Source: a virus
Length of the DNA: 38,902 nt
Direction: 5' to 3' (one strand)
Virus record (IMG/VR): IMGVR_UViG_3300046787_000308
Span: 1-38,902 of that record
Below, piece by piece: positions 23,441 through 37,202 of this stretch; within the stretch, counting starts at the first letter, position 1; the number at the start of each line of letters is the position of its first letter. The position numbers and the translations under genes were made by a program. Under the pieces are notes generated by a model. It did not search any database. It was not told the origin of the DNA and saw only the letters and a program-made list of their open reading frames with translations.

Positions 23441-24281
23441 TGTAATTTCACCAGTGGGCAGAATAGTGCAAGGCGATCTATTCGAAGGCAGTACTAACGG
23501 CTATCAAAACAAACCTTATGGATTGCGACAAGATGGCAGTGTTATCAAAAAATGGTTTATTGCATTAGCGATCGAGAAAAATAATCCTGACCTCGCTAAG
23601 TTTATGCAAGATCTATTAGGACAAGCGCGTCAAGCGTGGCCAACATTTCACGGCAATCACTTGGACAACAACGTTTTCAAGTCGAAGATAGCCGACGGTG
23701 ACGCGACCGACGATCAAAACATGAAAGGGTGCGTTATATTCAAACTGGAATCGCAATACCCGCCAACAATTTTTGCGCCCGATTGTAAACGAGTAATAAC
23801 GAATCCTGAAGAAGTTAAACGCGGCTACTACATACAGGTAGCGGGTAGTTATGAGACAAATGGTGACAACCAAAAGCCTGGAATGAAATTCTGGCTACAG
23901 AAAGTTTTGTTCAAATACGCAGGGACTGAGATCAAAGGCAGTAGTGACGGCTCGTGTTTTGTTGATGCGTCGAGTGGTTATCGCCCAGCCGGTGCCGTTG
24001 ATATTGCACAACAAGGCTTCGCGCCTCACGCTGTGCAGGGACAACCTCAAGGGTTCGCGCCTCACGCTGTGCAGGGACAACCTCAAGGGTTCGGAGTGCC
24101 ACAAGCAAACCCTCAGCAGGTCGTACCTGCGCACAATGTGGGATTCGGCCAGTCACCAACTACTCAACAGAACCACACTTCGCATCAAATCCCTATTACT
24201 CAGCATGGTGTGACGAATGCGACATCCCCTTCTAATCATGTTGTGCCAGATTACTCGTTTCTAACTCCACCACAAAGGTAA
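23433..24281 (+). CDS. DUF2815 single-stranded DNA-binding protein
   Basis: 282 aa from ATG 23433; an earlier in-frame ATG at 23418 lacks support, while 23433 has GAGG at a good distance. The N-terminal OB-fold-like region (about 10-165) has GDLFEGSTNG, LDNNVFKSKIADGD, GCVIFKLESQYPPT and GYYIQVAG, matching DUF2815, a T7 gp2.5-like group. The C-terminus (about 175-282) is a disordered Gly/Gln/Pro/His-rich tail carrying two exact copies of a 12-residue unit (GFAPHAVQGQPQ) and ending in LTPPQR. Such tails recruit other replication proteins. Confidence 0.75.
   Translation: MGNVISPVGRIVQGDLFEGSTNGYQNKPYGLRQDGSVIKKWFIALAIEKNNPDLAKFMQDLLGQARQAWPTFHGNHLDNNVFKSKIADGDATDDQNMKGCVIFKLESQYPPTIFAPDCKRVITNPEEVKRGYYIQVAGSYETNGDNQKPGMKFWLQKVLFKYAGTEIKGSSDGSCFVDASSGYRPAGAVDIAQQGFAPHAVQGQPQGFAPHAVQGQPQGFGVPQANPQQVVPAHNVGFGQSPTTQQNHTSHQIPITQHGVTNATSPSNHVVPDYSFLTPPQR
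24018..24089 (+). repeat. 36-bp perfect tandem repeat within the ssDNA-binding gene
   Basis: Two adjacent identical 36-bp units (24018-24053 and 24054-24089) encode the 12-residue repeat GFAPHAVQGQPQ in the protein tail. In-frame units and complete identity suggest a recent slippage expansion in a disordered region. It is not a CRISPR, since no spacers separate the units. Confidence 0.9.
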
Positions 24282-29858: not shown

Positions 29859-30328
29859 CTGTTAACGAGTGGGCGCAGCGATGGGGCATACCCGCTAACG
29901 CACTCAATGAGCTAACACAGTTATTGAGTGTTGACTGCACGTCAACCGAAACGGGATACAGTGAAGCGGCGGTAAGTAGTCGTATCGTGTTGGCCGCAAG
30001 TAAGCGCGGTATACGGTTATTTCGTAATAACGTTGGAGCGTGTCAGGCTGAAGATGGTCGTATGATACGCTACGGAATCGCTAATGAATCGACACGGATC
30101 AACAGCGTTATTAAATCGAGTGACTATATAGGGATTACTCCCCGCACTATCAACGGTCAACGCGTTGGTGTGTTTACGTCGATCGAGGTAAAACGTGCTG
30201 GATGGCGTTACACTGGTACAGGTCGCGAAGTCGCTCAAAAACGTTGGTTAGATTTCGTTAACGCTTCGGGCGGTATTGGTTTTTTTGCAAACGATGATCA
30301 GGTGATCAATGAAATTTGTATTGACTAG
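29855..30328 (+). CDS. VRR-NUC domain nuclease
   Basis: 157 aa. The VRR-NUC arrangement is clear: YSEAAVSSRI with Glu37, IRLFRNNVG (53-61), SSDYIGI with Asp90, then FTSIEVKRAGW (Glu111-Val-Lys113) and AQKRWLD (Gln128). These residues form the PD-(D/E)XK catalytic centre of the family, which includes Holliday-junction resolvase-like and repair nucleases. It probably resolves branched intermediates in phage replication. The first 30 residues form a helical extension. The end overlaps the primase-helicase start by 20 bp. Confidence 0.85.
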   Translation: MTVNEWAQRWGIPANALNELTQLLSVDCTSTETGYSEAAVSSRIVLAASKRGIRLFRNNVGACQAEDGRMIRYGIANESTRINSVIKSSDYIGITPRTINGQRVGVFTSIEVKRAGWRYTGTGREVAQKRWLDFVNASGGIGFFANDDQVINEICID

Positions 30329-32540: not shown

Positions 32541-32742
32541 AAGACGTGTAGTAATAAGATATATCGATGTTTTTAGAAAATGGTACATTTGCAACGCGTG
32601 CAATTATCTGAATACTTTCAGGTCATCGGTAAACGGATTTATCACTAGACAAGATGCTGTTGATTTTGCCGAATCCAATAACTGTATACCGCGCTTACTT
32701 GCGGCCAACACGATACGACCCCTCCGAGCACACTACCAATGA
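32518..32742 (+). CDS. Unknown small protein
   Basis: 74 aa from ATG 32518; a longer frame starts at 32485 but would overlap the primase gene by 56 bp and lacks a ribosome binding site. There are two nearby Cys residues (YICNACNYL), a basic N-terminus (SLEIKRRVVIRYIDVF) and a helical end (PRLLAANTIRPLRAHYQ). CNAC plus surrounding aromatic residues suggest a small metal-binding or DNA-associated protein, without family evidence. Confidence 0.4.
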   Translation: MENSLEIKRRVVIRYIDVFRKWYICNACNYLNTFRSSVNGFITRQDAVDFAESNNCIPRLLAANTIRPLRAHYQ

Positions 32743-33038: not shown

Positions 33039-33292
33039 TGGGTGAAATTGAGGGACATGCTTTAATATATTGCGATCCGCCATATATTAACACCACGAAA
33101 TATAACCACGATATAGATCATAATAAATTTCACGAGTGGTGTAGAGATCGTGCGCGGGAAGGTCATACAATATTTGTTAGTGAATATACCGCGCCCGATG
33201 ATTTCAAACTAGTTTTCGAAAAAGAAGTATTGTGCGAACTCGATAAAAACTCGAAATCTAAACGAACTGAACGATTATATACGATAGACTAA
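33038..33292 (+). CDS. D12-class adenine methyltransferase C-terminal fragment
   Basis: 84 aa from ATG 33038, which has a strong GGAGG site at 33027-33031. LIYCDPPY (motif IV, Asp13 to Tyr16) and later FHEWCRDRAREGHTIFVSEY (about 37-56) match the second half of D12-class DNA adenine methylases. The SAM-binding motif I, FxGxG-like, and the target-recognition region are missing, so it is about a third of the usual 270 residues. It may be a remnant, a decoy or a partner of another subunit; it is unlikely to be a complete enzyme. It is the last rightward gene before the convergent junction. Confidence 0.6.
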   Translation: MGEIEGHALIYCDPPYINTTKYNHDIDHNKFHEWCRDRAREGHTIFVSEYTAPDDFKLVFEKEVLCELDKNSKSKRTERLYTID

Positions 33293-33633
33293 TCATTTCC
33301 TAGCGCCTCAAGTGATCGAGGCGCGTTTCCTACGATTCCAATCGACCCGCGTTCTAACAATGTATCATCTGTACAAATAACATTCTCTGCAAAAATAGTA
33401 TTAGCAATTTTACGCGCCTCACCCTTATATCGCGCGTGAATTATAACGTGATCGGTTTCTGCTCCATTTATTGCGATATATCTACGAGTAGTTAACGGTA
33501 CTTCTACGGGTAGCCACTCATTAGGTTTCATTTGTGCACGTCTAAACGCGAGCATTTCTTGATGTGTCATCGGGTAAATATTACCGATGGGTAAACCACT
33601 ACTGTGTTGAATAACATACCAACGAGTTTTCAT
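33289..33633 (-). CDS. Unknown leftward protein
   Basis: 114 aa starting at 33633 (ATGA), ending in tail-to-tail overlap with the rightward block. The sequence has an aromatic N-terminus (KTRWYVIQHSSGLPIGNIYP), a central Pro/Glu/Arg part (MKPNEWLPVEVPLTTRRY) and a beta/charged end. No family is recognised. Its start region, including the ribosome binding site and the first codons, lies at the edge of the 120-bp repeat that also carries the clamp start. The last 7 codons are within a hairpin. Confidence 0.5.
   Translation of the reverse strand: MKTRWYVIQHSSGLPIGNIYPMTHQEMLAFRRAQMKPNEWLPVEVPLTTRRYIAINGAETDHVIIHARYKGEARKIANTIFAENVICTDDTLLERGSIGIVGNAPRSLEALGND
33303..33324. terminator. Hairpin 11 bp beyond the rightward block, inside the opposing gene
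   Basis: GCGCCTC at 33303-33309 pairs with GAGGCGC at 33318-33324 (7 bp, 8-base loop), followed on the + strand by GTTTCC. It lies just beyond the end of the rightward operon (stop 33292) and within the coding end of the leftward gene. The placement suits a terminator for rightward transcripts, but the U-tract is short. A related hairpin occurs at 33755-33776. Confidence 0.45.
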
Positions 33634-33747
33634 TTATTGCGTTTCCTTATCATCTCATCATATGCTTTTGTTGCTGACGCAGTTCGGTACACATACTCGT
33701 TTTTGTTTATGTGTGTTCGATACGCCGCGCCTTTATGTACTAAATCG
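33628..33747. repeat. 120-bp direct repeat, left copy
   Basis: This stretch is identical to 34759-34878 except for one base (G at 33727 against A at 34858), offset by 1131 bp. It contains the start codon and ribosome binding site of the 114-aa gene and the last 38 or so codons of the leftward HTH gene. The two copies flank the sliding-clamp gene. Confidence 0.95.
33631..33747 (-). pseudogene. Startless duplicate of the HTH gene 3' end
   Basis: Read leftward, this segment repeats the C-terminal end of the 34761-35189 protein (GAAYRTHINKN and ATKAYDEMIRKRNK), with one substitution, Val to Ala, in the sequence GVAYR to GAAYR. It has no start codon of its own upstream and is probably untranslated as a separate protein. 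It does keep the AAGGA site that serves the next gene. It is the signature of a duplication that accompanied the insertion or amplification of the clamp cassette. Confidence 0.8.
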
Positions 33748-33754
33748 CTTTAAC

Positions 33755-33776
33755 GCGCCTCAATATCTTGAGGCGC
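33755..33776. terminator. 9-bp hairpin at the end of the sliding-clamp gene
   Basis: GCGCCTCAA (33755-33763) pairs with TTGAGGCGC (33768-33776) around a 4-base loop, covering the clamp stop codon at 33760-33762. It shares the GCGCCTC/GAGGCGC stem with the hairpin at 33303-33324, which ends the neighbouring leftward gene. There is no clear U-tract on either strand, so it may stabilise transcript ends or act as a weak terminator. Confidence 0.4.
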
Positions 33777-34764
33777 CTATCACATGCGTTAAATCACCGT
33801 TAATTATTACTAACCTATCGATAGCTCCTATATCTATTCTCACAATATCATCATCCACAGTTTTTAAAACATCTACCAAATATTGGGGATAGATATTAAA
33901 TGATATTTGTTTAGACTGATCACCGTGCCACGAGCATTCGATTGTCGTATCTAAAATACTGCATACACGACCTATTGACGATATCAATACAGGTTTTTTT
34001 GATCGTTTGAGTACTGACAATAATTGTTTTTTATTAAACGTCCAATAGTTTTTTGTCGCAGTAGGTATAATCCGCTCGTACTCCGGATATTCACCGTCAA
34101 TAATTTTCGATCTCACGATAATATTGGTTGTCGAAAACGTTATAGAGTTCGTTGTGTAATACATTATCATTTCATCACTCTTGATTTTCGACAACACGTT
34201 AATCGTTCGAGACGGTATTATTATTCGACAATCTGTTGATCGTATAAAGTTATGTTTTGACAGACTCAAACGACAACCGTCTGTTGCTACCATTATTAAC
34301 TGTTGATTTTTTATTTCTAACAAAACACTGTTTAAATAATAGCGCACATCTTTTACCGCCATTGCGTGTTTTATTTTAGATACTAACACAAGAGGGATTG
34401 TTATCGGTTCAATGGTTTCTGTAGACGTCGGGTTAATGCAGTCTGTACTTGATAATACATCTATTACAGATTGCACACCGTCGCATATTATCGATAATTT
34501 ACTACCGATCAAATTAAAATAAACATCTGAATGTTTATCAAATGATTTTAAAATCGTGAGCAATTTTTTACTGTCAACAGTGATTGTGCCGTCGTCAACA
34601 GTGATTGTGCCGTCGTCAACAGGGTCATTTAAAACACATGTTGTAGTTATTTCGATTTCATCATCACGGGACACAACCGACAATACGTTATCATTTACAC
34701 TTATGAAAACGCTAGACTGTGTTAATGTTTTGATCATCCATTTATTGATAATTATAAATTTCAT
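33760..34764 (-). CDS. dnaN-like: DnaN-like sliding clamp (DNA polymerase III beta homologue)
   Basis: 334 aa, a processivity clamp rather than a standard phage protein. The strongest matches to bacterial beta are ATDGCRLSLSKH (about 160-171), IIDGEYPEYERIIP (about 222-235), and SRTINVLSKI with the three-domain length. The C-terminus is HVIGASRY, where bacterial clamps end near a conserved Met-Pro-Met-Arg/Leu. An internal repeat (VDDGTITVDDGTITV) near 49-64 is unusual. The gene starts at ATGA overlapping the HTH stop, with AAGGA upstream inside the 120-bp repeat. It looks AT-rich and Ile/Thr-rich compared with its neighbours by eye, consistent with a separate origin. It could serve the phage polymerase or bind host clamp partners. 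Confidence 0.8.
   Translation of the reverse strand: MKFIIINKWMIKTLTQSSVFISVNDNVLSVVSRDDEIEITTTCVLNDPVDDGTITVDDGTITVDSKKLLTILKSFDKHSDVYFNLIGSKLSIICDGVQSVIDVLSSTDCINPTSTETIEPITIPLVLVSKIKHAMAVKDVRYYLNSVLLEIKNQQLIMVATDGCRLSLSKHNFIRSTDCRIIIPSRTINVLSKIKSDEMIMYYTTNSITFSTTNIIVRSKIIDGEYPEYERIIPTATKNYWTFNKKQLLSVLKRSKKPVLISSIGRVCSILDTTIECSWHGDQSKQISFNIYPQYLVDVLKTVDDDIVRIDIGAIDRLVIINGDLTHVIGASRY
34574..34622. repeat. 21-bp tandem repeat in the clamp gene
   Basis: Two full copies of a 21-bp unit (34574-34594 and 34595-34615) are followed by seven bases of a third. They encode the heptad VDDGTIT repeated in the clamp's first domain. The unit size, a multiple of three, keeps the reading frame, so it may be a recent slippage insertion in a surface loop. 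Confidence 0.9.
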
Positions 34765-34878
34765 TTATTGCGTTTCCTTATCATCTCATCATATGCTTTT
34801 GTTGCTGACGCAGTTCGGTACACATACTCGTTTTTGTTTATGTGTGTTCGATACGCCACGCCTTTATGTACTAAATCG
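34759..34878. repeat. 120-bp direct repeat, right copy
   Basis: This is the copy in its original context. It covers the C-terminal end of the HTH gene, its stop, and the start of the clamp gene. It matches 33628-33747 at 119 of 120 bases. Together the pair bounds the sliding-clamp cassette. Confidence 0.95.
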
Positions 34879-35189
34879 ATCAGTAGCAGTCTTGCGTAAC
34901 GTCTACTGATCCCACAACTTGTTGCAATGCTTTTCGATGTAGCGCCACCGACAAGCATTTCGCGGATCCGCACCGACGGTTCACCACTCTGCATTGGTGC
35001 TAGCGCTGTGAATATAAAGCGGCATGTGTCATGGAGGATTTGAGTCTTTCTGACTTGCTTACGCTTAACTAATTTATCGAGACACGCGTGTACGCTAACA
35101 CGTTTAATATCCGGTAGCCCTTCACAAACCTCTACCGATGTGGATGGTCCGGCAGTGTTTAAAAAATTTATCACTCGTCTAGTTATCAT
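34761..35189 (-). CDS. Putative DNA-binding protein with two winged-helix-like regions
   Basis: 142 aa. The first region (about 1-50: ITRRVINFLN, VSVHACLDKLVKRKQV) and the second (about 75-115: IREMLVGGATSKSIATSCG, SRRYARLLLIDLVHKG) both fit winged or bipartite HTH patterns, with helix-turn-helix around TSKSIATSCGISRRYAR. It could be the regulator of the leftward block or a replication initiator that binds the TTACGTAA motifs; neither is shown. It starts with a GGAG-type site and overlaps its neighbours on both sides. Its C-terminal end is duplicated at 33631-33747. Confidence 0.55.
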   Translation of the reverse strand: MITRRVINFLNTAGPSTSVEVCEGLPDIKRVSVHACLDKLVKRKQVRKTQILHDTCRFIFTALAPMQSGEPSVRIREMLVGGATSKSIATSCGISRRYARLLLIDLVHKGVAYRTHINKNEYVYRTASATKAYDEMIRKRNK

Positions 35190-35532
35190 CTCTCATAAGC
35201 TCCATAATCGACTCTTTGTGATCACGCCAAAACTCAAGCGCACCATGTGCCATTTTGCTAATCTGTTCGTCATTAAAATCGCTCCATTCACTGACTGAAT
35301 ACTGTTGACATCCTATTTGCAAAACATTCTTAGTCCAAGATATGTTCCAAAAGTATTCAGTTGTGTGCTTTATCTCTTTTCCGTTGCCTACGCACCCTTG
35401 AAGGTTCACGCCTCGAAGGTCCGCGCCTTGAAGGTTCACGCCTCGAAGATCCGCGCCTCGAAGATCCGCGCCTCGAAACAATCCATTCTTAACACATGTT
35501 CGCCAAGTATTCATAAAAGTTATTGCTATCAT
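35179..35532 (-). CDS. Pentapeptide-repeat protein
   Basis: 117 aa. Residues about 18-46 form five or six pentapeptides (GLFRG, ADLRG, ADLRG, VNLQG, ADLRG, VNLQG), encoded by 15-bp units at about 35396-35480. The rest, about 55-117, is a Trp/Tyr-containing region ending MRDDN. Short right-handed quadrilateral helices of this type can mimic DNA or protect enzymes such as gyrase (Qnr-type), but the tract here is much shorter than in Qnr and the role is unknown. It has a GAGGAGT site and overlaps its neighbours. Confidence 0.7.
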   Translation of the reverse strand: MIAITFMNTWRTCVKNGLFRGADLRGADLRGVNLQGADLRGVNLQGCVGNGKEIKHTTEYFWNISWTKNVLQIGCQQYSVSEWSDFNDEQISKMAHGALEFWRDHKESIMELMRDDN

Positions 35533-37022: not shown

Positions 37023-37202
37023 TGTAATTTTAAACGACTTACGTAAAATTTGAGCGACTTACGTAAATCATCCAACGCGTTGGACGATCTGTGATAACGT
37101 AAGTTATTTAACGTAAGTCGTTTAACGCTATCGTATCTCGACTTACGTAAGTCGTTTTACGTGTAAGTCGCTCAAATTTTACGTAAGTCGTTTAAAATTA
37201 CA
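37023..37202. other. Inverted-repeat region with TTACGTAA motifs, candidate replication origin/operator
   Basis: A 40-bp perfect inverted repeat has arms at 37023-37062 and 37163-37202 around a 100-bp centre. It contains many copies of CGACTTACGTAA or its complement TTACGTAAGTCG: 37035-37046, 37055-37066, 37109-37120, 37139-37154 (a perfect 16-bp palindrome), 37179-37190, and degenerate copies at 37095-37106 and 37157-37170. A 14-bp palindrome TCCAACGCGTTGGA lies at 37071-37084. A further copy occurs outside at 37420-37431. Iteron-like density next to a promoter in a gene-free, AT-rich zone is typical of replication origins or master operators. The binding protein is unknown. Confidence 0.6.

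Follow-up and report, generated by a model that had tools for sequence, protein, structure and literature searches.

A 120-bp direct repeat brackets a sliding-clamp gene in a phage operon: a probable footprint of gene gain

How did a beta sliding-clamp gene come to stand between two nearly identical stretches of DNA, each of which carries the start region of the gene that follows it? The DNA analysed here, a 38,902-base IMG/VR virus record (the window), carries head, portal, terminase and tail genes that match tailed-phage PHROGs, together with replication genes for a primase, a PolB-type polymerase, a PD-(D/E)XK exonuclease and a Gp2.5-like ssDNA-binding/annealing protein. On the minus strand, a gene for an HTH (winged-helix-like) protein is followed by the clamp gene and then by a gene for a 114-aa protein (Table 1). 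An earlier note on this DNA had described near-identical 120-bp repeats on both sides of the clamp, and realignment bore this out: 119 of 120 bases are identical between two direct copies spaced 1131 nt apart, a degree of sequence match that chance cannot plausibly have produced. The sole mismatch, read on the minus strand, is a C in the left copy versus a T in the right, or GCG versus GTG in the HTH frame.

Table 1. Coordinates of the features of the clamp locus in the window.
Feature	Position	Strand	Basis
Gene for the HTH (winged-helix-like) protein (142 aa); the repeat derives from this full-length copy	34761..35189	-	ORF
Perfect 9-bp inverted repeat GATCAGTAG/CTACTGATC within the HTH gene; its end coincides with R's upstream edge	34878..34911	-	
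Right repeat copy R, made up of the final 38 HTH codons, AAGGA, the ATGA overlap and the clamp gene's initial 6 nt	34759..34878	-	
Gene for a DnaN-like beta sliding clamp of 334 aa; no other 1-kb region of the window has lower GC	33760..34764	-	PF02767, phrog_947, AF2, fold search
Exact 21-nt tandem duplication in the clamp gene (TITVDDG twice)	34573..34614	-	
Hairpin GCGCCTCAA-GATA-TTGAGGCGC(GTT) over the last clamp codons and stop	33752..33776 (hairpin 33755-33776)	-	
Left repeat copy R', a 3' piece of the HTH gene that has no start; RBS and start context for the 114-aa gene	33628..33747	-	
Gene for the 114-aa protein, no known family	33289..33633	-	
Hairpin at the 3' end of the 114-aa gene, nearly the twin of the one at the clamp end	33303..33327	.	

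The contents of the copies also agreed with what had been claimed for them. Both hold HTH codons 105-142, the ribosome binding site AAGGA and TAAATGAAA, and both finish in ...AAGGAAACGCAATAAATGAAA; here the genes are coupled through ATGA, in which the HTH stop (TGA) shares bases with the ATG of whichever gene follows. Immediately upstream of these codons in the left copy, an in-frame TAA shuts reading from upstream, and this copy is thus a startless HTH 3' fragment, as proposed. No sigma-70-like sites were listed within either copy. A scan seeded with 24-mers across ~200 further loci (2.4 Mb in total, almost entirely phage DNA) revealed no other non-tandem direct repeat of at least 80 nt at 150-5000 nt spacing, the matches in four of these loci being internal repeats with periods of 150-351 nt.

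We examined where the identity of the two copies breaks off. Downstream, it ends 6 nt into each following gene, within ATGAAA, with which the clamp and the 114-aa genes both naturally begin; beta-clamp genes commonly start with Met-Lys-Phe, and an alignment of viral clamps contains several with an MK[FLI] start. Upstream, both copies adjoin perfect 9-bp hairpins, one in the HTH gene and one at the clamp end, where about 7-8 nt separate the stem from the edge of R'. Perfect hairpins of at least 9 bp number 13 in the 38.9 kb versus 1 to 7 in Markov shuffles, and random placement would bring both breakpoints this near to hairpins with a probability of ~1e-4, a post-hoc value from a test picked after the data were seen. 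A near-twin of the clamp-end hairpin lies at the end of the 114-aa gene (matching at 22 of 25 positions in inverted orientation and at 17 of 22 in direct orientation), and therefore both units read repeat-gene-hairpin. The hairpins were rejected as terminators, with no U-run behind them and no entry for them in the terminator scan, and a structured-RNA element was likewise set aside (no Rfam match; a weak folding z of -2.2 for a stretch that includes the hairpin). Between the copies the clamp is the only ORF, with no integrase or transposase, and insertion by an integrase or transposon was discarded: the duplication measures 120 nt and the hairpins do not form terminal inverted repeats around the insert.

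The clamp ORF is intact, shortened, and bracketed by both copies. Profile matches (PF02767 at 3.9e-20, with PF00712 also above its cut-off and PF02768 below; phrog_947 at 1.3e-29), a predicted structure and a fold search place its product among genuine beta-clamps. The AF2 model (pLDDT 87.8) has the three-domain secondary structure shared by DnaN and phrog_947 clamps, and its top solved-structure match is the Pseudomonas aeruginosa beta clamp (TM 0.83, Foldseek E 3.7e-28). In contrast with DnaN clamps, the protein lacks ~14 residues of domain I (the RNTIPIL region), has a shortened domain III and carries TDGCR in place of TDGHR. Homology ends at ...VI, after which the conserved C-terminal MPMR(V/L), located near the partner-binding cleft in DnaN, is replaced by a hairpin-encoded GASRY in the last five codons, whereas 28/29 aligned viral clamps have M-P-x-R. 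The best identity in the collections searched was at most ~36% over a partial segment and at most 29% over the length. In the clamp tree the protein sits on a long branch, with gammaproteobacterial DnaN and Alteromonas phage XX1924 close by; since this fork is open and its bootstrap unsettled, we leave the donor unnamed. A dnaN match in an Acinetobacter 'phage' was rejected as a phage clamp, as it sits among the chromosomal genes dnaA, recF and gyrB.

Comparison of the clamp with its neighbours, which the earlier note had called for, covered GC content and codon choice. GC content is 34.0% in the clamp gene versus 38.5-50.8% in the other genes measured, within the lowest 0.13% of 1005-nt windows, but synonymous codon choice is ordinary (codon z 1.7), and the protein sequence itself may account for the low GC. 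Among 34 phage records with relatives of the window polymerase (~46-50% protein identity), none had a PF02767 clamp, an absence that falls short of proof because many of the records are fragments. Over the same records the more sensitive profile phrog_947, which detects the divergent clamp of Acinetobacter phage Loki, gave one weak match only, to a fragment-like 166-aa ORF of Proteus phage RS10pmA. That ORF, labelled 'DNA polymerase III' (MG575420.1 19328-19825; L215 829-1326), covers only the middle of the phage clamp profile. In the opposite direction, none of 42 records with DnaN-type clamps contained a window-type polymerase. The statement that this polymerase never meets a clamp nevertheless had to be narrowed, since in Loki a distantly related polymerase (25% identity) assigned to the same PHROG is directly coupled to a very divergent clamp; the pairing is thus not unheard of. 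The polymerase sequence QIDLF was dismissed as a clamp-binding motif, being conserved in clamp-less relatives; QGDLF is present in the phage SSB. To judge from sequence, the clamp is the foreign-looking part of the locus: it is AT-richest, has had its last five codons replaced, and has no full-length counterpart in the 34 records with related polymerases.

The flanking genes have few points of comparison. Profile matches of the HTH protein to TrmB, MarR and PHROG transcription regulators are weak, and a single-sequence AF2 model of the 114-aa protein was uninformative (pLDDT 48). No relatives of either protein were found in IMG/VR, INPHARED, the fetched loci or 36 whole records, and tblastn against a phage database gave no match for the HTH protein and one chance-level match for the 114-aa protein. 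IMG/VR held no close relatives of the clamp, the 114-aa protein, the HTH protein or the primase; TerL matches there are 37-41% identical and polymerase relatives reach at most 50% among the matches listed, with GTDB polymerase relatives at 47% or less. A clamp-less form with a single repeat was not found in the same collections, and since these yielded no HTH or 114-aa relative, the clamp-less ancestor is reconstructed rather than seen.

From the anatomy, the near identity of the copies, the hairpins at both breakpoints and the foreign-looking clamp, we infer an order of events and a mechanism to which we give about even chances: a single illegitimate recombination or template-switch event would have put the clamp between the HTH and 114-aa genes and duplicated the HTH 3' end. 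In the ancestor, the HTH gene was most likely coupled by ATGA directly to the 114-aa gene. A beta-clamp gene would then have entered exactly at the 114-aa start codon, through illegitimate recombination or a template switch during replication, with one junction within the ATGAAA shared by the clamp and 114-aa starts. At the other junction, synthesis would have left the clamp 3' end at the hairpin and re-entered the HTH gene ~120 nt upstream of its exit point, at the base of the other hairpin, so producing another copy of that gene's 3' end. The right repeat would thereby complete the HTH protein and start the clamp, while the left would be a non-coding relic, probably retained because the 114-aa gene takes its RBS and start from it. 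The earlier note had read the locus as an insertion or amplification that keeps each downstream gene translatable, and the anatomy, the clamp composition and the absence of clamps beside related polymerases all fit this reading. The exonuclease and annealing protein encoded by the phage provide supporting context, as do other short near-exact copies in the genome (43-nt inverted, 42/43; 36-nt tandem; 21-nt tandem); because the genome holds such copies, the inverted one included, copying accidents like the repeat appear to recur in the lineage. The suggestion that the event was recent fits the near identity of the copies but is unproven, since gene conversion by phage recombination proteins could also have kept them alike.

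Several observations count against the insertion of a clamp as such. The anatomy is symmetrical, and the 114-aa gene could itself be the newcomer, with an R'-114 segment copied or recombined behind an older HTH-clamp operon. While the symmetry and the want of detectable relatives of the 114-aa protein favour this account, it is the clamp that is AT-rich and relative-less in its polymerase background and that has an altered C-terminus, whereas the GC content of the 114-aa gene is an unremarkable 41.4%; we regard it as unlikely. Which of the two genes arrived second is a deduction made with no clamp-less sibling known. The similar hairpins at both unit ends would be explained more simply by an unequal illegitimate crossover between co-infecting siblings with different cargo in one slot, HTH-R-clamp-hairpin and HTH-R-114-hairpin, that joined the clamp-end hairpin of the one to the mid-HTH hairpin of the other. 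A single junction would suffice, and the clean ATGA coupling of both genes, the R-gene-hairpin layout of both units and the one-base difference (as allelic) would all be accounted for. However, neither sibling type was found in the collections searched and the hairpins are more alike inverted than direct; we hold this crossover to be a close, though less probable, rival to insertion. The ordinary codon choice and the Loki pairing also weigh against clamp insertion.

Two further explanations bear on the repeats themselves. Homologous recombination between the copies could excise the clamp precisely and restore HTH-114 exactly, and the earlier note had proposed a switchable module on this ground. 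In such a module the repeats would be maintained to toggle the clamp out, by annealing or homologous recombination, for bet-hedging or regulation; the phage encodes exonuclease and annealing proteins. Beyond the clean excision we found nothing in favour of a switch: the repeats bear no sign of selection, neither a recombinase nor an att-like site lies between them, the deletion form was not seen, and the genome offers no way to regain the clamp, which makes a switch very improbable. An assembly artefact, in which a 120-nt repeat was mis-joined from two metagenome strains, is suggested by the source, an IMG/VR virus record analysed as assembled sequence; set against the one-base difference, four distinct flanks and intact ORFs throughout, it has only a slight likelihood. 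A broader speculation, to which we attach little credence, is that a cargo port lies behind the HTH gene. Phages of the lineage would then hold different genes in a slot bounded by a constant start region and a constant 3' hairpin, and units could stack head to tail; single-strand annealing would frequently remove a stacked clamp again, so that populations would be mixtures of phages that have a clamp and phages that do not.

Repeated segments that border cargo have precedents. PeSL cassettes (promoter early stem-loops) are said to have been described by Arbiol et al. 2010 and Comeau et al. 2014. In T4-type phages, these cassettes flank cargo as short repeats, each with a stem-loop and signals for expression, and are credited with its shuffling (PMC4503421). 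The window locus resembles them in its repeated short segments bordering cargo, its stem-loops and its expression signals, but its repeat, present in just two copies, is the coding 3' end of one gene with an RBS and start codon and not an intergenic element, and no early promoter was seen in it; nor is the window phage T4-like. The locus comprises two copies and two cargo genes, with no relatives found in the collections searched. MMBIR template switching, a model put forward for human copy-number variation (PMC2621351), likewise involves segments copied from near the breakpoint and junctions at hairpins or microhomology, although in the window such a process would be read from one phage genome. 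The Loki module shares with the window a PolB of the same PHROG and a phage beta clamp; in contrast, the Loki clamp and polymerase genes overlap in one operon, and its clamp has no detectable pairwise similarity to that of the window.

The underlying process, illegitimate recombination with duplication, is already well known, and we consider the locus a genuine trace of gene gain by a phage, clean and unusual; in kind it is ordinary, and its use as a switch is unproven. If the preferred reading, clamp insertion with duplication of the HTH 3' end, is true, gene gain in a phage operon has been caught early, with both breakpoints and the leftover copy still visible, and copying an upstream gene end offers a simple route to an extra gene in a translationally coupled operon without silencing the next. 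A clamp beside a polymerase type that almost never has one also raises the question of its role.

Other features of the window deserve mention. A short ORF (33040-33292, +) with a partial DNA methyltransferase match (DPPY motif, phrog_56 positions 234-321 of 647) looks, on sequence grounds, like a methyltransferase remnant. A pentapeptide-repeat protein gene (35179-35532, -) contains 15-nt DNA repeats that, because they are nearly identical, probably expanded recently. The 36-nt tandem duplication (24012-24083, 97%) lies in the tail of the ssDNA-binding/annealing protein gene, and the 43-nt inverted repeat (29979-30021 / 32677-32719) places part of a VRR-NUC-like endonuclease gene reversed inside an 85-aa ORF; since the primase gene lies between its arms, recombination could invert that gene. 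Finally, a long gene-poor stretch contains a perfect 40-nt inverted repeat (37023-37062 / 37163-37202) with a 10-bp hairpin (37111-37148) between its arms, and may be an origin or regulatory region.
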